Part shown: one piece after another, positions 2,878 to 14,636 of the stretch
Position numbering within the stretch: the stretch's first letter is position 1
How the letters are laid out: the number at the start of each line of letters is the position of its first letter
Virus record (IMG/VR): IMGVR_UViG_3300037587_000666
Location: 1 to 22,888 of that record
Source of the DNA: a virus
Length of the DNA: 22,888 bases
Strand: one strand, 5' to 3'
Notes under the pieces: model-generated
Told to the model about the DNA's origin: nothing
Database searches by the model: none
What the model saw: only the letters and a program-made list of their open reading frames with translations
Position numbers and translations under genes: made by a program

Positions 2878-2902
2878 GGGTGTCCTTCGGGGCACCCACT
2901 TT
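2878..2902 (+). terminator. TTCG-tetraloop hairpin between the SSB-like gene and thyX
   Basis: Bases 2878-2885 pair with 2890-2897 in an 8-bp stem (one G-T wobble) closed by the very stable TTCG loop. A short ACTTTCT tail follows, too poor in T for a strong intrinsic terminator. It may attenuate transcription, or act as an RNA-processing or 3'-stabilising hairpin. It also makes the GTG at 2880 an unlikely start for thyX, since that codon lies inside the stem. Confidence 0.6.
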
Positions 2903-2908
2903 CTATCA

Positions 2909-2922
2909 AGAGTCGAAGAGAG
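2909..2922 (+). repeat. Early-leader box, copy 2 (AGAGTCGAAGAGAG)
   Basis: This is the same element as at 6213-6229 and 9004-9020 with a one-base insertion. It lies just after the TTCG hairpin and 23 bases before the thyX ATG. No convincing -35/-10 pair precedes it here, so it may mark a processed or attenuated leader rather than a new promoter. Confidence 0.45.
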
Positions 2923-2945
2923 CAACAACACAGAGGCTAAGCGCT

Positions 2946-3701
2946 ATGCTCGATGCAAACGGAAAAAATGTCACGCTATCAGGCGTGGTCGATAGCAAAA
3001 TTGATGTCCTTGATCACGGTCATGTACGGCTGGTGGATCACATGGGCAGCGACCTGTCAATTTCACGCAATGCGCGTGTTTCTTACAATGCGGAATGGCG
3101 AGCGGGGGAAGACAAAGGCAGTGACACGAAGCTGATCAACTATCTGTACAACAACGGTCATAACACGCCGTTTGAATCAGTGACATTCACCTTTGACGTG
3201 AAAGCGCCGATTTTCGTGTTCCGCCAGTGGCATCGGCATCGCACCCAGAGTTTCAACGAGGTCAGCGCTCGATACACCGAACTGCCTGAAGAGTTCTACG
3301 TACCGGAGCCTAACTTGATCGGCCAACAGCATTCTGATAACAAGCAGATGCGTACTACAATCACGTGGGAAGAATTTACCCAACTGAGTGATGTTGACCG
3401 GGCCATGATGGAATCAGCCTGCGTCTACATGAAAGAAGCGAATGCGGCTTCGTTCAGAAGTTACCATCAAATGATAAAAGATGGCGTTCCTCGTGAGCTG
3501 GCACGATCAGTACTGCCGGTGGGTACTTATAGCCACATGTTTGCGACAGTCAATCTCCACAACCTATTTCGGTTCTTGGCGGAGCGGATGCACCCACATG
3601 CCCAATACGAAATCCGGGTATACGCCGAAGCAATGCTGGAGCTGATCCGGCCCATCGTGCCGGTGGCAGTAGCAGCGTTCGAAGAAAAATTCGAAAAATA
3701 G
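2946..3701 (+). CDS. thyX: Flavin-dependent thymidylate synthase ThyX (251 aa)
   Basis: ThyX methylates dUMP to dTMP with methylene-tetrahydrofolate, FAD and NADPH. The diagnostic RHRxxSxNExSxRY motif is complete at residues 97-110 (R97, H98, R99, S102, N104, E105, S107, R109, Y110). It is preceded by 'NNGHNTPFES', the usual ThyX lead-in. The later 'DGVPRELARSVLPVGTYS' (about 179-196) is the conserved substrate-binding segment, and length fits the family. The ATG at 2946 has a GAGG site at 2933-2936. A longer frame from GTG 2880 starts inside the hairpin and is rejected. The gene lies next to the DNA polymerase. In a phage that rebuilds its purine pool, ThyX would supply dTMP, the pairing partner of Z. 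Identification is secure. Confidence 0.96.
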   Translation: MLDANGKNVTLSGVVDSKIDVLDHGHVRLVDHMGSDLSISRNARVSYNAEWRAGEDKGSDTKLINYLYNNGHNTPFESVTFTFDVKAPIFVFRQWHRHRTQSFNEVSARYTELPEEFYVPEPNLIGQQHSDNKQMRTTITWEEFTQLSDVDRAMMESACVYMKEANAASFRSYHQMIKDGVPRELARSVLPVGTYSHMFATVNLHNLFRFLAERMHPHAQYEIRVYAEAMLELIRPIVPVAVAAFEEKFEK

Positions 3702-3715
3702 CAACAATTAAGGGT

Positions 3716-3746: not shown

Positions 3747-5597
3747 ATGAGTTTTCCCAACATTCTAGCATACGACGAATTAGCGTTCGACACCGAAACC
3801 ACCGGCTTAAATCCGATGGACGGTGCCCGAGTATTCGGGTTTAGTATTTCCACTGCGGATGCCGACTACTATTGGGACATCCGCCAACAGCCTAACGCGG
3901 TTCTCTGGTTCAATGACCAGATGAAGAAGTATAAAGGCACCATTATCTGCCACAACTTATCATTTGACTATCGGATGTCCCATGCGACCGGAATCTACTT
4001 CCCGTTAGAACAGGCCGTTGACACATGCATTCTGGCCTGCCTGATCAACGAACACGAGCACAGCTACGCGCTCGACAATCTGGCAAAGAAATACACCAAA
4101 TCATTTAAAAAGGGTGATGAGCTATATAAAAAGTTGGCTGAGCTATTTGGGGGGCGGGCGACTAAAAATGTGCAAGTCAAGAACTTCGCCAGAGCACCAG
4201 TAGAAGTCATGGCCCCCTATGCCAAGGCCGACACACGCGCCACATTTGATCTGTACCAATGGCAAAAACGACAGATTGTAGAGCAAGGGTTGGAAAAGAT
4301 AGTTGCTTTCGAACGCGAAGTGACACCGGCTATCATCGAAGCCGAAATGCATGGGATCAGGGTTGATATCCCAGCGGCAGAACGTGCCGTAGGCCCGATC
4401 ACAGAAGAAGTTAACCGCATGCAAAAGGAACTGGACAGCATCGCGGGCTTCCACTGCAACCCACAACCGAGCGGCGATATCAAAAAACTGTTCAAACCGG
4501 AATGGCGAGAGGAACGATGGTGGGCCAATGATGGGACGCCATTAGCAAATACAAACGCCGGGAATCCAAGCCTAGGAGCTGAGGCCCTGCGGGCAATGTC
4601 CCACCCAGCCGCGAAGTTGATACTTGATTTACGCAGTATGATCAAGACACGTGACACATTCTTAATGGGCCATGTTCTTGAGTCAGCCTGTAATGGCCGC
4701 GTCTACCCTACTATCAACCAAACGAAAGGTGACGAAGGCGGCACCGGTACAGGGCGGCTGTCATACACTACCCCCGCACTGCAGCAGATCCCGGACCGGA
4801 ATAAGAAGGTTGCCGAGATTGTAAAGCAGGTCTTCTTGCCAGACGAAGGCCACTCGTGGGTGGACGCTGATAAGGCGTCATTCGAGGTTCGGATGTTTGC
4901 TCACTTAGTGGGCACACGTGATATCTGTCAAGTGTACGAAGACAACCCGGAGACTGACTTTCATCAATATGTGGCTGATCTAACGGGCTTGGTACGAAAT
5001 GCCACATATACCGGCCAGCCGAATGCCAAGCAACTGAATTTAAGCATGATCTTCAACCAGGGCAATGGGACTACTGCTGAAAAAATGGACTTACCATGGG
5101 AGTGGGAAAGCTTCGTGCCGAGAGACAGCATCGACGGCGAAGAAGTCGTGTTCAAGAAGGCAGGGCCAGAGGCAATGGCGGTGATCAATAAGTATCACCA
5201 TGAACTGCCGGGAGTACAAAAATTAGCTGATGGCTGCAAGAAAGTAGCAATTGACAGGGGCTACATCTTCACCCGTGCCGGACGTCATTTGCGATTCCCA
5301 CGGGGATACAAGGCGTATAGTGCATCAGGGTTGCTGATCCAAGCAACATCGGCGGACGAAAACAAGCGGAGCTGGATGCGGATTCGTGAGGCACTGAGTG
5401 GCACCGACGGCAAAATGCTGATCAACACGCACGATTCCTACAGCATGTCGTTGCCGATCGGTAAAGAGCAGCAAATAGCTAAATTGGTGAAGGAAGCGGT
5501 AGAAGCGGATCGCGGGCTACGCGTTCCACTGATACTTGAAGTCAACCATCCCGGTAAAAATTGGTGGGAATCTAAAAGCGCAGGGCGGTGGATGTGA
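3747..5597 (+). CDS. dpoZ: Family A DNA polymerase with 3'-5' exonuclease, DpoZ type (616 aa)
   Basis: This is the phage replicative polymerase, and the linked purZ-mazZ-datZ genes mark it as the DpoZ type that copies with dZTP. Numbering is from ATG 3747; an in-frame GTG at 3714 would add 11 residues, and neither start has a good ribosome site. The exonuclease domain is intact: Exo I D15-T-E17, Exo II N70...F73-D74, Exo III Y158...D162. Polymerase motif A is DKASFEVR, with D375 as metal ligand and E380 as the ribose-side gate. Motif B has K428 but Gln four residues before it, Leu where Pol I has Phe762, and Phe where it has Tyr766. Motif C reads H562-D563-S564 instead of HDE. There is no 5'-3' nuclease domain. 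The gene overlaps the next by one base. The family A call is secure; Z preference is inferred from context. Confidence 0.93.
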   Translation: MSFPNILAYDELAFDTETTGLNPMDGARVFGFSISTADADYYWDIRQQPNAVLWFNDQMKKYKGTIICHNLSFDYRMSHATGIYFPLEQAVDTCILACLINEHEHSYALDNLAKKYTKSFKKGDELYKKLAELFGGRATKNVQVKNFARAPVEVMAPYAKADTRATFDLYQWQKRQIVEQGLEKIVAFEREVTPAIIEAEMHGIRVDIPAAERAVGPITEEVNRMQKELDSIAGFHCNPQPSGDIKKLFKPEWREERWWANDGTPLANTNAGNPSLGAEALRAMSHPAAKLILDLRSMIKTRDTFLMGHVLESACNGRVYPTINQTKGDEGGTGTGRLSYTTPALQQIPDRNKKVAEIVKQVFLPDEGHSWVDADKASFEVRMFAHLVGTRDICQVYEDNPETDFHQYVADLTGLVRNATYTGQPNAKQLNLSMIFNQGNGTTAEKMDLPWEWESFVPRDSIDGEEVVFKKAGPEAMAVINKYHHELPGVQKLADGCKKVAIDRGYIFTRAGRHLRFPRGYKAYSASGLLIQATSADENKRSWMRIREALSGTDGKMLINTHDSYSMSLPIGKEQQIAKLVKEAVEADRGLRVPLILEVNHPGKNWWESKSAGRWM

Positions 5598-5794
5598 TGG
5601 AACTAGCCCAAGTTAACACGAACTCGATTTATTTTTGCAACAGAGCGAAGTCTTACTGTTGCATCGTCGGCAGCTATTGGGATGACGGAGCGACACTGAT
5701 AGCATGCAAATACGAAAATGGAGATGTGACGGATCAATTATTTATCACTGAATCATCATGCCTAATGCCACTAGTGGGGGCCAGCGATGGATGA
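5597..5794 (+). CDS. Small protein of unknown function (65 aa)
   Basis: The ATG at 5597 shares its A with the polymerase stop codon (TGATG), a typical translational-coupling overlap, with AGGGCGG about 9 bases upstream. An in-frame GTG nine bases earlier is less likely. The product is small, beta-rich and acidic, with four Cys residues (including the pair in 'SYCCIVGSYWDDG') that do not form a recognisable zinc motif. It overlaps the following gene by eight bases. Tight coupling on both sides suggests expression with the polymerase. No family is recognised. Confidence 0.65.
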   Translation: MELAQVNTNSIYFCNRAKSYCCIVGSYWDDGATLIACKYENGDVTDQLFITESSCLMPLVGASDG

Positions 5795-6050
5795 CGTGAG
5801 CAGAACGTGGGCTGAACACAAAAAACATAGCCAAGACAAGCGAGCGAGCAACCGCGCAGCCAGCGCCGGGATACTGATCAGGGCCGGGATAAAATTCGAA
5901 TCGAAGAATCAGGGAGCGCACCTAGTAGTGGCATCGAACCGTGGCAAAATTGATTTCTGGCCCGGAACAGGGAAATGGATTCTGAGGGAGGGCGGAGCAA
6001 CAGGACGCGGCGTTAATAACCTACTTACGGCAATGAAGGTGGTGCAATGA
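5787..6050 (+). CDS. Conserved small phage protein of unknown function (87 aa)
   Basis: The ATG at 5787 overlaps the previous gene's end, with a GTGGGGG site at 5774-5780. The N-terminal third is a charged helix rich in Arg, Lys and His. The rest reads 'AGIKFESKNQGAHLVV' then 'IDFWPGTGKWI' and a basic 'GRGVNNLL'. From memory, the 'FESKN.GAHL' and 'IDFWPGTG.W' pair typifies a short uncharacterised protein found beside phage polymerases and nucleases. Overall it is strongly basic, which would suit nucleic-acid binding, but no experimental role is known to me. It ends in an ATGA overlap with the next gene. Confidence 0.75.
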   Translation: MDDVSRTWAEHKKHSQDKRASNRAASAGILIRAGIKFESKNQGAHLVVASNRGKIDFWPGTGKWILREGGATGRGVNNLLTAMKVVQ

Positions 6051-6193
6051 AAATTTGTTATCAGTGTGAAAAGGACGTGAATTACTTATTTGGCGATTCC
6101 CGCTGCGGCGAATGTACTCGATTAACGCCGGAAGAAGTAAGGGGAGATATTGAGCCAGAAGAGCCAACGATCACGGTTGACGACGACGACTAG
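6047..6193 (+). CDS. Small zinc-ribbon-like protein with acidic tail (48 aa)
   Basis: This short frame starts in a four-base ATGA overlap with the preceding stop. Two CxxC knuckles, C4-Y-Q-C7 and C20-G-E-C23, lie 12 residues apart, as in a compact zinc ribbon. The second half is very acidic, ending in four Asp. The ribosome site GAAGGTGG is at 6035-6042. The last codons contain the -35 box of promoter P2. It is the second tiny two-knuckle protein in the block (compare 713-889), but the two share no other obvious sequence. Function unknown; an acidic zinc ribbon could bind a host protein, which is speculation. Confidence 0.7.
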   Translation: MKICYQCEKDVNYLFGDSRCGECTRLTPEEVRGDIEPEEPTITVDDDD

Positions 6194-6205
6194 GCGTGAT
6201 ATAAT
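6177..6205 (+). promoter_or_regulatory. Sigma-70 promoter P2 ahead of the HNH-purZ-mazZ-datZ genes
   Basis: TTGACG (6177-6182) and TATAAT (6200-6205) are spaced by 17 bases, one mismatch from full consensus. The -35 box lies inside the end of the previous gene. The spacer differs from that of P1 and P3 and lacks their CCAC...GTGG dyad, so P2 may be regulated differently. It gives the Z-biosynthesis genes their own transcription start. Confidence 0.85.
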
Positions 6206-6212
6206 GGGTTCT

Positions 6213-6229
6213 AGAGCGAAGAGAGAAAT
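6213..6229 (+). repeat. Early-leader box, copy 3 (AGAGCGAAGAGAGAAAT)
   Basis: These 17 bases are identical to 9004-9020. The GAGAG part ends 7 bases before the ATG at 6233, so it doubles as the ribosome binding site of the HNH gene. It begins 8 bases after the -10 box of P2. Confidence 0.6.
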
Positions 6230-6232
6230 CGC

Positions 6233-6550
6233 ATGTTGGCAGGCAAATACAGGCGCAAGATAAAAATTAATCTTCTCACCAGTTGCGTCGATGGCACGTC
6301 GTGCTGGATATGGCAGGGCGAGTTAAACAGAAACGGCTATGGCAGGTTATACGAACGTGGATCTAGGCCAATGGCTCACAGACATATTTATCGGCTGTTA
6401 GTGGGGAATATTGGGAAAAGGCAATTAGACCACCTCTGCTATAACCGCGCCTGCGTAAATCCACGGCATATGGAGAAGGTCACTAACAAGGTAAACAGTA
6501 GAAGAAGATCGCAACGAATTAAACAACTCAAAATCAATAAGGAATATTAA
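6233..6550 (+). CDS. HNH endonuclease, homing-type (105 aa)
   Basis: This is a small free-standing nuclease of the HNH fold. The hallmark segment is present: 'AHRHIYRLL' at 48-56 (H49/H51), then D66-H67-x-C69-x-N71-x-x-C74-x-N76-P77-x-H79, the usual DH.C.N..C.NP.H signature of phage homing HNH proteins. An upstream 'CWIWQGELNRNGYGRL' matches the N-terminal strand pair of the same family, and the C-terminus is basic. The ATG follows the leader box in P2's transcript, and the gene ends one base before purZ. Such genes move by cutting related genomes that lack them. Its site between promoter P2 and purZ suggests insertion into the Z cassette, although it may instead have a role in packaging or exclusion. 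Confidence 0.88.
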   Translation: MLAGKYRRKIKINLLTSCVDGTSCWIWQGELNRNGYGRLYERGSRPMAHRHIYRLLVGNIGKRQLDHLCYNRACVNPRHMEKVTNKVNSRRRSQRIKQLKINKEY

Positions 6551-6551
6551 A

Positions 6552-7640
6552 ATGACGACTAAGGCGTATATGATTCTCGATTTACAATTCGGCTCCACTG
6601 GCAAAGGGCTGCTGGCAGGTTATCTGGCTAAACAAATGCAGCCGGATGTAGTGGTCACTGCTTGGGGGCCGAACGCAGGGCACACCTATATTGACGAAGA
6701 AGGCCGGATTTTTATCCACCGGATGTTGGCCAATGGCATTGTTTCGCCAAAGCTCAAGGCGGTGCTTATAGGTCCCGGCTCGGTACTGGATCTGGATGTG
6801 CTAAACGCCGAAATCGAGTCGTGCAAATCTCTACTGATCGGGAAGTGTTTAGTAATTCACCCGCAGGCGGTTGTAGTGACCGACGAGCACCGGAAAACGG
6901 AAGTGCGAAACGTTAAAATCGGCTCCACGATGAAGGGCACCGGCGCAGCGGTGATCGAGCGTATTGAGCGGGATCCGGACAACAACCCAACGGCCATTTC
7001 AGCCATTCCGCGTAGCTGGCTGGACAACATCGCCCAAATGGGCATTGGCATTGAAGTATCGTCCCGCACATATGACTACTTCATGTCGAGCGCCGAAAAA
7101 ATTCAAATCGAAGGCGCTCAAGGGTACAGCCTGTCGATTTATCACGGCTTTTACCCGTACGTCACCTCCCGTGATGTAACTCCTGCACAAGTCATGGCCG
7201 ACTGCGCCATTCCATTTAGCATCATTCCCGAAGTGTACGGCACCCTTCGAACGTTCCCCATTCGAGTGGCGAATCGTTATGATGAAGATGGCAGAATGAT
7301 CGGCACCAGTGGTCCCAGCTACCACGATCAACAAGAACTGGATTGGGGAGATATTGGGTTAGAGCCTGAATTGACTACGGTCACTCAGTTGCCGCGCCGA
7401 ATCTTTGATTTCAGCTTTGACCAGTTGAAAGAAGCGGTCTACCGTTGTGGCCCAACAAAGCTGTTTTTGAACTTCGTTAACTATCTGGATCACGAAGACG
7501 CCTTGCAACTCATCGGCAGAATCAATGCCGAAATCGATGGTCGCCATTGCCGGATAGAATGGGTCGGTGTCGGGCCTGCACACCAGGACGTGCTAAGCAC
7601 TGTTCATTGGGCCGACACGAATAGCAAGAGGGGGTCGTAA
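6552..7640 (+). CDS. purZ: PurZ, 2-aminoadenylosuccinate synthetase (362 aa)
   Basis: PurZ is the adenylosuccinate-synthetase paralogue that joins dGMP to aspartate, giving the precursor that host PurB splits to dZMP. The fold is clear from the P-loop-like Q12-F-G-S-T-G-K-G19, 'GPNAGHT' at 39-45 (H44), 'EGAQGYSLSIYHGFYPYVTS' from 188, 'TLRTFPIRVAN' from 231 and the C-terminal 'VGVGP'. In PurA the glycine loop is GDEGKGK and its Asp is the catalytic base; here Ser15 takes that place, the hallmark of PurZ over PurA. At 362 residues it is shorter than bacterial PurA (about 430). The start ATG has an AAGGAA site (6539-6544). It is two bases from the kinase-mazZ fusion. Identification is strong; substrate use is inferred from the family. 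Confidence 0.95.
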   Translation: MTTKAYMILDLQFGSTGKGLLAGYLAKQMQPDVVVTAWGPNAGHTYIDEEGRIFIHRMLANGIVSPKLKAVLIGPGSVLDLDVLNAEIESCKSLLIGKCLVIHPQAVVVTDEHRKTEVRNVKIGSTMKGTGAAVIERIERDPDNNPTAISAIPRSWLDNIAQMGIGIEVSSRTYDYFMSSAEKIQIEGAQGYSLSIYHGFYPYVTSRDVTPAQVMADCAIPFSIIPEVYGTLRTFPIRVANRYDEDGRMIGTSGPSYHDQQELDWGDIGLEPELTTVTQLPRRIFDFSFDQLKEAVYRCGPTKLFLNFVNYLDHEDALQLIGRINAEIDGRHCRIEWVGVGPAHQDVLSTVHWADTNSKRGS

Positions 7641-7642
7641 TC

Positions 7643-8401
7643 ATGAAATTGATGGTATGTGGACATGGTCGCCACGGAAAAGATCAGTTTTGTGAATTCA
7701 TGGGCCTAAAATACGTCAGCTCGTCAATGGTGGCGCTGGATAAGATAATCTGGCCTGAATTCAGCAATGCGTACGGCTCAAAGCAAGAGTGTTTCGATGA
7801 CCGAGTAAATCATCGGGCTGGCTGGCACCGCCTGATCACCGAGTATAACACGCCTGATAAAACGAAATTGGCCCGCGATATTTTCGCGGAGAACACCGTT
7901 TATTGCGGCATTCGCAACCGGGAGGAATTCTACAAGGCCAAAGAAGAAGGGTTGTTTGATCTGTCAATCTGGGTGGATGCCAGTAGCCGCCAACCACCTG
8001 AGAGCGATGCCAGTTGCAAACTGCTGATATCTGATTGCGACATCATCGTGACTAACAACGGGTCGTTGGAGGAACTCGAAGAAAAGGCGTTGCGCCTTAA
8101 GGCTGCGTTGGGACTGGGTGAAATCTCGGTAAAAGATCTGATCGTTGATTGGGCCGATGAAGCATTCCCGGATCGCACAATCACCAACGCGATCCAGAAA
8201 CTCGTGCTGGAAGAAATCCCGGAGTATCTTACCTCCCAGCAAGATCCGATGGAGTTGGCCGATTTGGGCATTTTGCTCTATGACATTGCCCATTTAGCCG
8301 GTGTCGATTTGGAAAGTGCCATTCGCAAGAAAATGGAAATCAATAAGGGCCGAACTTGGGCCATTGATAAAGTAACCGGCCTAATGCGCCACGTGGAGTA
8401 A
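7643..8401 (+). CDS. mazZ: Fusion of a P-loop dNMP kinase-like domain and MazZ (MazG-type dGTP pyrophosphohydrolase), 252 aa
   Basis: Residues 1-155 look like a phage deoxynucleoside monophosphate kinase: a Walker A loop G7-H-G-R-H-G-K-D14 with the GKD ending of that family, 'YCGIRNREEF' at 87-96 with R91, 'LSIWVDASSR' at 107-116, and 'IIVTNNGSLEEL' at 134-145. Residues 165-240 form an all-helical MazG domain with metal ligands in E190-E-x-x-E194 and E204-L-A-D207, then 'KKMEINKGRTW' at 229-239. In Z phages the MazG-type MazZ makes dGMP from dGTP for PurZ. The ribosome site GAGGGGG is at 7630-7636. The gene lies between purZ and datZ. The kinase part might raise dZMP or dTMP to the diphosphate; that substrate is inference. 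The whole frame is uninterrupted, so the fusion is real in this sequence. Confidence 0.88.
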   Translation: MKLMVCGHGRHGKDQFCEFMGLKYVSSSMVALDKIIWPEFSNAYGSKQECFDDRVNHRAGWHRLITEYNTPDKTKLARDIFAENTVYCGIRNREEFYKAKEEGLFDLSIWVDASSRQPPESDASCKLLISDCDIIVTNNGSLEELEEKALRLKAALGLGEISVKDLIVDWADEAFPDRTITNAIQKLVLEEIPEYLTSQQDPMELADLGILLYDIAHLAGVDLESAIRKKMEINKGRTWAIDKVTGLMRHVE

Positions 8402-8406
8402 CCTAT

Positions 8407-8913
8407 ATGATCCTCGATTTCAGTGTACGGGAAATTATGCGACTGTCTAACATCAAACGATGGGGGATAGTTGAAATGGCTCGCAGCCAGTCGGTCGCGG
8501 AGCATTCATACAACGTGGCGATGATATCGTTGGCCATAGCATCTGAAATCGAGGTTCCGTGGGCAGAAGTGTCACGCAGTGAAATCCTTTATTGGGCTTT
8601 GCTACACGATGTACCAGAGGTGGTGACGGGCGATATCCCAACCTCCCTAAAAGGATATCTGGACGTAGAGAGTATGGAAAGGGAGTTATGTCCGAAGTAT
8701 AAAAGCTTCGAGGACTCGATAAAAGGGACGTTAGCAAAAACCGTGGTCAAGGCCGCTGATTACATCGAGGCATTACAGTTCGCTGAAAAATTCTGTGTGG
8801 ATAGCAGAAAGAACGAGATCATATACGACATCCAAAGTAACATGGTGTCGTTCTTAGATAAAAAAGAGAACATCCGTGTTGCTCTTGCCGTGGAGAAGTT
8901 AGATTTTGAGTAG
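8407..8913 (+). CDS. datZ: DatZ, HD-domain dATP triphosphohydrolase (168 aa)
   Basis: DatZ removes dATP, leaving deoxyadenosine and triphosphate, so that A is not incorporated. The HD-fold ligands are visible: H33 in 'VAEHS', H67-D68 in 'LLHDVPEVVTGD', and D118 in 'KAADY'; E71 and D76 lie where YfbR-type phosphohydrolases have theirs. R18-W19 at the end of helix 1 is the conserved base-binding pair. I21 and P78 sit at the spacing I recall for the S-2L enzyme residues that block the 2-amino group of dZTP (I22, P79). Length (168) is close to known DatZ (about 175). The gene follows mazZ by five bases. A generic 5'-nucleotidase of the YfbR family is the alternative, made unlikely by the purZ-mazZ linkage. 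Confidence 0.92.
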   Translation: MILDFSVREIMRLSNIKRWGIVEMARSQSVAEHSYNVAMISLAIASEIEVPWAEVSRSEILYWALLHDVPEVVTGDIPTSLKGYLDVESMERELCPKYKSFEDSIKGTLAKTVVKAADYIEALQFAEKFCVDSRKNEIIYDIQSNMVSFLDKKENIRVALAVEKLDFE

Positions 8914-9290: not shown

Positions 9291-9704
9291 ATGAGTAGAG
9301 CGGAAAACTCGTTCAAAAAGTATCTGATGGGAATAATGGGCACCCGATGGGATGCCCAGTCCCATGAGGACAAATACTCATCCGGAATACCCGATCTTTC
9401 CTACGGTGCCAATGGCATTAACGGGTGGATCGAATTGAAGCATATAAAGTCGTGGAAAGGCGATCGGCCCGTAAAGCCTGATAAGTATACCGTTATACAA
9501 GTCAACTGGCTGAATAAAAGACAAAAATGTGGTGGTCATTGCTTTATCATGATTAAAATTGCTGATGATTATTACCTGTTGGACGCAATTAAAGCAAAAG
9601 CAGTAAAATCAGGCATGACTAAACAGCAGTATGAGACAAATAGCATATCACATTGGCACCGGTCAGTATCGCCCCAAGGGCTGCTATGTTTGCTAACTCA
9701 ATAA
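9291..9704 (+). CDS. PD-(D/E)XK nuclease-like protein, VRR-NUC/resolvase type (137 aa)
   Basis: The sequence has the core of a PD-(D/E)XK nuclease: 'GIPDLSY' with D35, then 'GWIELK' with E48 and K50 on the following strand, preceded by a helix with 'SFKKYL' and H25. A later 'QVNWLNKRQKCGGHCFIMIKI' (from about 69) matches the helix and strand that follow in VRR-NUC and Holliday-junction-resolvase-like families. At 137 residues it is the size of stand-alone phage VRR-NUC proteins. The start at 9291 lacks a clear Shine-Dalgarno site. A role in resolving replication or recombination intermediates, or in degrading host DNA, is inferred. The pattern is convincing for the fold, less so for the exact subfamily. 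Confidence 0.75.
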   Translation: MSRAENSFKKYLMGIMGTRWDAQSHEDKYSSGIPDLSYGANGINGWIELKHIKSWKGDRPVKPDKYTVIQVNWLNKRQKCGGHCFIMIKIADDYYLLDAIKAKAVKSGMTKQQYETNSISHWHRSVSPQGLLCLLTQ

Positions 9705-13181: not shown

Positions 13182-14636
13182 TTATTGTGCACCAACCTTT
13201 TGCCATGTTGTCGATCCACTAGTATTAATATATAAAACACCAACACTTGTTACCCACATTGAGCCAATGGCCGCAGAGTGTGTAGGTGCGGATGCGCTAG
13301 CCGAAGCCACAATTCGCAACGGGGTAGCGTTTGCGCCAGTGCCACCCGTTGTTTCACACCGGACACCTTCTTGAGCACTTTGACCAAAGACGCCTATTGT
13401 ATTTCCAACACCCTGAACACCCCTGCCGGTAGCGCTCGTGTTCAGGCCGACAACAGCGGCAATCGATGCACTAATAGAAGTGGTTGTACTAAAGAACCCT
13501 GCAGAGTTGTTTGCCGAAGTGGCCTCTATGCAGATAGCGCCTCCCGAGAAAAATGCAGCAGCCACGTTTGTACCACTTCGACATAGCATTCCTCGTTTGG
13601 AATAACTGGCATTATTACTGCCAATTTCTAGAAAGTAGTCGTCGCCTGCTACATTTGACACGCCGATATTAAGAACCTCATCAACGGTGCCGTCGCCCCG
13701 ATCAGCGAAGAATAACATTTCATTACTGGAGTCGCTGATTTCAACTCGTTGACCAGACCCGCTTGATGTTTTAAACCCGCCGACTATCTCAAGGTCGGTA
13801 CCATCCCATTTAAATGATTTGACTGCATTACCAAAATGCAACTTCCCAACGCCTGAATCCCTGCCAACCCACCAACCGGCAGCGGTGCTAGCGAATGTTG
13901 CTTTGCCAGAATAGATGGCACCTGTGTCTGTAGTTATGTTAATAGCCGAGTTAATGTTAATCTTATCGGCAGTGACCCCATTGACCGCGATCTCACTAGC
14001 GGTGATTGTCAGCGCAGCTATTTCGTTGGCAGTGATTGTGCCTGCTGATATTTCTGAGGCAGTGATAGTGTTGGCAGCTATTTGAGCAGCGGTAATTGTC
14101 AACGCCGCTATTTCAGCAGCTGTGATAGTATTTGCAGCTATCTCATTAGCAGTAACGGCATTAGCAGCTATCTTAGGAGTGGTCACGGCATTAGCTGTGA
14201 TCTTTGTTTCGGTGATAGCGTTGTCTACAATCTTCACCTCGGTAACAGCATCGTCGTCTAGTTTGGGAGTTGTGACAGCCCCGTCATCTAGTTTGGGGGT
14301 TGTCACAGCGCCATCTGCGATACCTCCGGCGGGGAGCTGGGTGGTAGTAAAAGAGGCTTCCAAAGTTTGCCCGCCATCACCGAAACCGTCAACAGATGTG
14401 ATTCTGAAAAAGAATTCAGTGTTAGGTACCAGCCCCGATATGACTGCTGGGTTATCTAACCCCTCAAATATGAGCGTGTCGTCATCAGAAGTGAAACCAG
14501 GAGTTAAACTCATATGGATTTTAATACCAATAAAATCCAAATCGGCAGGCGCTAAATAGGCGAACGACGTGGTATCTATAGCCGATGTAACTACAATGTT
14601 TGTTGCGATAAACGGCGCTGGATTAGTTACACTCAT
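13182..14636 (-). CDS. Tail fibre protein with FN3-like head and decapeptide repeats (484 aa)
   Basis: Residues 1-100 look like one fibronectin type III domain ('FIGIKIHMSLTPGF', 'GLVPNTEFFFRITSVDGFG'). Residues 109-228 are twelve uninterrupted 10-residue repeats of the form x-[AT]-[VI]-T-x-x-[KEQ]-[IL]-x-x, expected to form a thin triple-stranded shaft. The remainder is beta-rich and glycine/serine-rich, with 'GVQGVGNTIGVFGQSAQEGV' near 400 like the short Gly-Val repeats of adhesive phage tips. The gene starts in a four-base ATGA overlap with the tail hub gene, and so is probably attached to it. Assignment as a fibre is firm; adhesion target unknown. Confidence 0.85.
   Translation of the reverse strand: MSVTNPAPFIATNIVVTSAIDTTSFAYLAPADLDFIGIKIHMSLTPGFTSDDDTLIFEGLDNPAVISGLVPNTEFFFRITSVDGFGDGGQTLEASFTTTQLPAGGIADGAVTTPKLDDGAVTTPKLDDDAVTEVKIVDNAITETKITANAVTTPKIAANAVTANEIAANTITAAEIAALTITAAQIAANTITASEISAGTITANEIAALTITASEIAVNGVTADKININSAINITTDTGAIYSGKATFASTAAGWWVGRDSGVGKLHFGNAVKSFKWDGTDLEIVGGFKTSSGSGQRVEISDSSNEMLFFADRGDGTVDEVLNIGVSNVAGDDYFLEIGSNNASYSKRGMLCRSGTNVAAAFFSGGAICIEATSANNSAGFFSTTTSISASIAAVVGLNTSATGRGVQGVGNTIGVFGQSAQEGVRCETTGGTGANATPLRIVASASASAPTHSAAIGSMWVTSVGVLYINTSGSTTWQKVGAQ
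13953..14312 (-). repeat. Twelve tandem 30-bp units encoding fibre decapeptide repeats
   Basis: On the minus strand the units encode a series that begins GAVTTPKLDD twice, drifts through DAVTEVKIVD and NAITETKITA, and ends in NTITAAEIAA-type and LTITASEIAV-type copies. The first two units are the same decapeptide; later ones differ at the third, fifth to seventh and last positions. Copy number could change by slippage or recombination. Confidence 0.85.

Follow-up and report, generated by a model that had tools for sequence, protein, structure and literature searches.

The phages in which adenine (A) is replaced by 2,6-diaminopurine (Z) include the Acinetobacter phage SH-Ab 15497, which carries DpoZ, SSB, PurZ, a DUF5664-MazZ protein and DatZ, the cyanophage S-2L, with PurZ, MazZ, DatZ and a PrimPol, and the Vibrio phage phiVC8, with PurZ, DatZ and DpoZ. 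The host enzyme for dZMP is reportedly guanylate kinase, according to the 2021 Science papers. Moreover, the steps leading from dSMP to dZTP have been assigned to enzymes of the host (PMC12884076; PMC8342488). A DUF5664-DUF550 fusion has been described as well (PMC12884076), and DUF5664 precedes MazZ in SH-Ab 15497, PSA28 and K21lambda1. On the other hand, no description of a kinase-MazZ fusion or of a phage dZMP kinase was found in the literature searched, subscription papers aside. The locus presented here is a variant of the known Z-genome system, and what is new in it is a dNMP kinase placed at the N terminus of MazZ.

The stretch of DNA analysed (the window) spans the 22.9 kb of a virus record that is probably a fragment, and a megablast search of its whole length against the phage collection retrieved no close relative. 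Genes for nucleotide and DNA metabolism point rightward across approximately 0-9.7 kb; from approximately 10 kb onward they give way to tail genes with a leftward orientation. The original prediction had proposed a complete Z pathway in one rightward block, with PurZ, MazZ and DatZ adjacent and the polymerase about 1 kb upstream, and all four genes were recovered at those positions on the + strand, as each of them matched curated models or the solved phiVC8 or S-2L enzymes. These are DpoZ, a family A DNA polymerase with 3'-5' exonuclease (3747..5597, +, 616 aa from ATG), PurZ, the (2-amino)deoxyadenylosuccinate synthetase (6552..7640, +, 362 aa), the open reading frame containing MazZ (7643-8401, +, 252 aa) and DatZ, an HD-domain dATP triphosphohydrolase (8407..8913, +, 168 aa). 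An alternative GTG start of DpoZ appears at 3714, upstream of the ATG at 3747. The gaps measure 2 bases between PurZ and the MazZ frame and 5 bases between the latter and DatZ, and 954 bases separate the end of DpoZ from PurZ, containing two small ORFs and an HNH endonuclease (6233..6550, +; PF13392, 28.1 bits vs. a cut-off of 24.8) that lies outside the Z pathway. No HNH-like ORF was found at the DpoZ-PurZ position of the other PurZ loci; relatives of this endonuclease were seen at other places in two of them (L026 and L058).

The closest described arrangement is that of SH-Ab 15497, whose enzymes, gene order and orientation agree with those of the window, with identities of 48% for PurZ and 52% for the MazZ domain, and which also shares with the window the upstream gp33-like and orf876-like genes. 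However, the position of its SSB gene is occupied in the window by the small ORFs and the HNH endonuclease, the N-terminal partner of MazZ is DUF5664 in SH-Ab 15497 and a dNMP kinase in the window, and its 43-kb genome has neither ThyX nor a kinase of either of the two families considered below. S-2L resembles the window in having PurZ, a MazZ of the MazZ-1 type and DatZ, all with matching active-site residues, but its MazZ is a lone 105-aa domain, unlike the window fusion, and its polymerase is a PrimPol instead of DpoZ. Furthermore, phiVC8 provides the best or near-best solved relatives of the window PurZ (6fm1) and DpoZ (7pbk), although no MazZ of the window type was found in it by HMM, nor a kinase of either family, nor ThyX.

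The four window proteins were aligned with their counterparts from S-2L, phiVC8 and SH-Ab 15497, and the active-site and specificity residues named by the structural papers (PMC8342488, PMC8065100, PMC8599892) were checked. PurZ scored 359.2 bits against NCBIfam NF038379 (cut-off 300), with S-2L PurZ standing beside 6fm1 among its best or near-best solved relatives, and the residues of its dGMP pocket (in S-2L numbering G22, S23, N49, A50, S131, T132, R146, Q190, Y203, T205, V241, T273 and R280) were kept apart from conservative changes. DpoZ reached 847.5 bits against NF038380 (phage_DpoZ_1; cut-off 500) and an E-value of 1e-192 against 7pbk, which is among its best solved relatives. It retains the exonuclease residues D15, E17 and D74, as well as the DpoZ-type residues L432, F436, G528 and S564 and three insertions, the first three residues corresponding to the phiVC8 marks L455 and F459 (helix O) and G548. 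In the case of DatZ, matches were obtained to the PHROG family phrog_7076 ('dATP triphosphohydrolase', 3e-29) and to S-2L DatZ (6zpa, 7e-9), and R18, W19, I21, Q28, A31, H33, H67, D68, E71, K82, K115 and D118 were kept. Among the DatZ marks considered (S-2L R19, W20, I22, P79, K81 and K116, plus the HD metal site), only P79 differed, being S80 in the window and Val in phiVC8. Finally, the MazZ part scored 33.2 bits against PF04447 (dATP-dGTP_PPHyd; cut-off 23) and kept E190, E191, E194, E204, D207, I210, D214, K230, N234, R237 and W239. It presents the marks of the dGTP-specific MazZ-1 type (DUF550), since the Mn ligands E34, E35, E38, E50 and D53 of S-2L are E190, E191, E194, E204 and D207 in the window, the guanine contacts I56 and D60 are I210 and D214, and R83 is R237.

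The Ser claimed in place of the catalytic Asp of PurZ was also confirmed, as S15 aligns with the Asp of E. coli PurA (residue 14 counting Met), and this position is Asp in both E. coli and archaeal PurA. Moreover, the phylogeny proposed as a counter-test, in which PurZ might have fallen inside PurA, placed it outside: ten PurZ sequences, including that of the window and the proven ones, formed a clade (100/99) apart from PurZ0, E. coli PurA and archaeal PurA. The earlier interpretation of a Z pathway therefore stands, DNA chemistry apart. Judged from the sequences, with curated-model scores above their cut-offs and published residues mostly kept, all four known phage genes for the replacement of A by diaminopurine are present, a set far beyond chance, and the phage would be an addition to the Z-genome phages, with securely predicted Z enzymes. 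Its virion DNA would accordingly be expected to contain Z and, as originally proposed, to resist restriction enzymes with A in their sites.

The account of the pathway was right in its four enzymes but incomplete, as both a kinase fused to MazZ and a nearby ThyX had been overlooked. In particular, the third protein had been described as a MazG-domain protein, which holds for its MazZ part (PF04447), while its N-terminal 157 residues constitute a separate domain. This frame encodes a two-domain protein, with a P-loop dNMP-kinase-like domain in residues 1-157 (7643..8113, +) and the MazZ domain, a dGTP pyrophosphohydrolase of the DUF550/PF04447 family, in residues 160-252 (8120..8398, +). The kinase domain has the P-loop sequence GHGRHGKD and matched phrog_38514 (3e-34) and phrog_139 (dNMP kinase, 4e-8), and no Pfam match to DUF5664 was found in the fusion protein, where the kinase domain sits instead. 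The AlphaFold (AF2) model of the fusion showed a pLDDT of 96.3 and a pTM of 0.73. Its MazZ half fitted S-2L MazZ (7ody) with 45% identity, a Z of 11.8 and 1.8-1.9 A.

The kinase fold is well supported by this model, in which VIA-align gave Z values of 10-14 to NMP and related kinases and the P-loop Lys is intact. The T4 dNMP kinase gp1 with dGMP (1dek; PF21448) presents the same fold over residues 1-157, with a Z of 11.7, 2.9 A, 152 residues and 22% identity, several other P-loop kinases equalling or exceeding that score. Both enzymes share the P-loop GxxRxGKD and a C-terminal ITN/VTN-x-GSLEEL motif; however, the window domain comprises approximately 157 aa vs. 241 for the T4-type DNMK, and it remained below the cut-off of the Pfam DNMK model (PF21448; 13.1 vs. 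27.1 bits). A search of the PDB with the kinase profile returned chance-level matches only, the likeness having come from the fold comparison. The family of the window kinase is common in other phages, with at least 584 relatives in IMG/VR. It also occurs in the Rhodobacter and Roseobacter phages RcRudolph, RcSimone-Hastad, RDJL Phi 1 and RD-1410W1-01 (39-48% identity), where its fusion partner is either a pyrophosphohydrolase or ThyX; in the former fusions MazG comes first, the reverse of the window, and belongs to PF01503 and not to MazZ. No PurZ appeared among the genes shown around these MazG-kinase and kinase-ThyX fusions.

The domain is presumed to be catalytically active on a deoxynucleotide substrate. 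Its position is that of DUF5664 in the SH-Ab type of phages, and residues 15 and 85 are Gln and Thr, where most relatives have Thr and Asp, respectively, all of which would also suit a dead kinase retained as a structural or regulatory replacement of DUF5664. However, every residue invariant over 44 members of the family is kept in the window, including Lys13 and Asp14 of the P-loop, the kinase half is conserved as much as MazZ, and in another phage (L202, see below) this position is taken by a dNMP kinase of a different kind, so that the loss of activity seems very improbable.

The fusion was found as one open frame in the window and in the contigs L009, L011, L020 and L202, and it is not an assembly accident. 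L009 and L011 are contigs of one second species, with a PurZ 74% identical to that of the window, and the identity of PurZ drops to 62-63% in L020 and 63% in L202. Between the window and L009, the kinase and MazZ halves showed 68% and 64% amino acid identity, respectively, with saturated third codon positions, and the counting of dN/dS gave no usable value because of this saturation of synonymous sites. In L202 the MazZ domain is 73% identical to that of the window, but its N-terminal half is a Pfam DNMK (PF21448, 79.9 vs. 27.1 bits) related to T4 gp1 (1dek, 4e-10), with no BLAST similarity to the window kinase (E 3.8). L202 is the clear case of a different kinase: one dNMP kinase has been replaced by another with the layout of the protein unchanged, an indication that it is the activity as such that is selected. 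For L020, its kinase grouped with those of the window and L009 in 0/200 bootstraps, with one clade not rejected by the AU test (p 0.25).

Among the at least 103 distinct PurZ loci listed, the short kinase was joined to MazZ in at least 3 and DNMK in at least 1, whereas DUF5664 preceded MazZ in at least 11, MazZ had another or no N-terminal part in at least 73, and no MazZ was visible in at least 15. These counts are lower bounds, since the IMG/VR scans were pattern-based. Many of the records are fragments. Kinase-MazZ appeared in only four of these loci, which fall in one clade of the PurZ tree (SH-aLRT 98). Neither kinase family was found elsewhere over the full length of 57 PurZ records, many of them fragments and with SH-Ab 15497, S-2L and phiVC8 included, beyond those same four. 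Thymidylate kinase (PF02223) was also absent from the 57 records, and guanylate kinase (PF00625) was covered by a P-loop pattern near PurZ rather than by its family model. Scanning IMG/VR with the fusion protein as a single query produced no matches, the relatives having come from alignment scans, and a PurZ scan of genome contigs for prophage or cellular copies yielded three contigs from MAGs, in none of which a kinase match was seen. Some 38 MazZ proteins of Z-phages (e.g. L012:9025-9606) bear an N-terminal part of 60-110 residues, as judged from predicted starts, that is neither kinase nor DUF5664.

Fusions between nucleotide enzymes are frequent in phages and take many forms (DUF5664-MazZ, MazG-kinase, kinase-ThyX), and an ordinary Z cassette could have acquired its fusion as a neutral accident of no functional meaning. 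Such an accident is hardly to be expected here, as the fusion persists across a clade in which PurZ diverges to 62-63% identity, the protein is conserved despite the saturated third positions, and the type of kinase was swapped with the arrangement unchanged.

As regards its substrate, a flavin-dependent thymidylate synthase, ThyX, lies upstream of DpoZ (2880..3701, +; TIGR02170, 187 bits vs. 87.9), and its true start may be downstream of 2880. ThyX appeared in 3 of the 57 PurZ records, all three being kinase-MazZ phages (Fisher p 1e-4 among loci with enough upstream sequence, shared ancestry uncorrected), and the L020 enzyme shares no more than 30% identity with the window ThyX and is located at another place. 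In addition, members of this kinase family have other fusion partners in phages that are not Z-phages: ThyX in an N4-like roseophage (L014:3989-5512), and a MazG/HisE-like domain, in the order opposite to kinase-MazZ, in Rhodobacter phages (L005:4392-5513 and L013:3365-4564); in L005, L013 and L015, thymidylate synthase is the gene next to the kinase with the MazG-like domain. From these contexts and the co-occurrence with ThyX, dTMP is a serious alternative or additional substrate. The kinase half might even serve dTMP alone, following ThyX (dUMP to dTMP to dTDP), with no relation to Z and with the fusion merely gathering enzymes of the nucleotide pool. This explanation is considered rather unlikely, though well above the two preceding ones, as the partner in the fusion is MazZ within a purZ-mazZ-datZ operon and not ThyX, and the 39.7-kb contig L009, perhaps incomplete, has the fusion but no ThyX. 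The T4 dNMP kinase acts on dTMP, dGMP and HMdCMP, and not on dAMP or dCMP (T4 record note). By analogy, a T4-type specificity would be a useful starting point, as an enzyme accepting a 2-aminopurine and not A would suit dZMP.

Overall, the reading considered probable is that of a Z-DNA phage equipped with a dNMP kinase that acts on dZMP, on dTMP or on the two of them. In this proposal, the window would be part of a tailed phage genome with A replaced by Z, MazZ would convert dGTP to dGMP, PurZ would join dGMP and aspartate into dSMP, and host PurB would release dZMP from it, to be raised to dZTP, with DatZ destroying dATP and DpoZ preferring dZTP. Within the kinase-MazZ clade, the phage dNMP kinase would be carried in front of MazZ on one chain, phosphorylating the monophosphates of the Z:T pair, that is, dZMP, dTMP (from the phage ThyX) or both, and either phosphorylation would serve this pair. 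With a kinase supplied by the phage, the phosphorylation of dZMP or dTMP would no longer depend on host kinases, and PurB and nucleoside-diphosphate kinase would still be provided by the host. As a counterpoint, a kinase accepting dGMP would undo the product of MazZ, so it must discriminate or else create a wasteful cycle. Moreover, the family is common in other phages and lies several times beside or fused to ThyX, hence dTMP may have been the substrate ancestrally, and dZMP is perhaps never used; nor is the kinase essential to the Z pathway, because most Z-phages do not have it.

The narrower assignment of kinase-MazZ as a phage dZMP kinase (dZMP to dZDP), with dNMP kinases from two or more dissimilar families fitted to MazZ within the clade, is put forward tentatively, and a real dZMP kinase activity of the window domain is likewise given somewhat under an even chance. 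If true, the phage would have its own enzyme for a reaction usually credited to host enzymes, and this enzyme would be useful for the laboratory production of Z-DNA, where hosts may phosphorylate dZMP poorly. Kinase-MazZ marks a group of Z-phages that seems to take over one host-ascribed step and, through ThyX, to provide the partner base T as well, and the protein is a defined candidate for dZMP kinase activity.

Regarding the remaining genes of the neighbourhood, a VRR-NUC-like nuclease adjoins DatZ (9291..9704, +; phrog_2165, 1e-26, with the PHROG label 'DNA helicase'). Such a nuclease is often found 3' of the cassette in Z-phages, with phmmer homologues in many PurZ loci. Upstream, the ORF at 876-1220 has homologues in many PurZ loci (47 phmmer matches), and the Pam3 gp33-like ORF at 1222-1824 and the Pam3 gp34-like ORF at 2143-2862 had 56 and 63 phmmer matches among PurZ loci, respectively, some duplicate loci being included in the three counts. 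In L020, a small ORF between DpoZ and PurZ (L020:5630-5995) looks acyl-carrier-protein-like by eye (GLDSLDQVEL motif). Finally, a probable tail protein of the window (13182-14636, -) contains a run of short repeats (ITANEIAALTITAAQIAANTITASEIS...).
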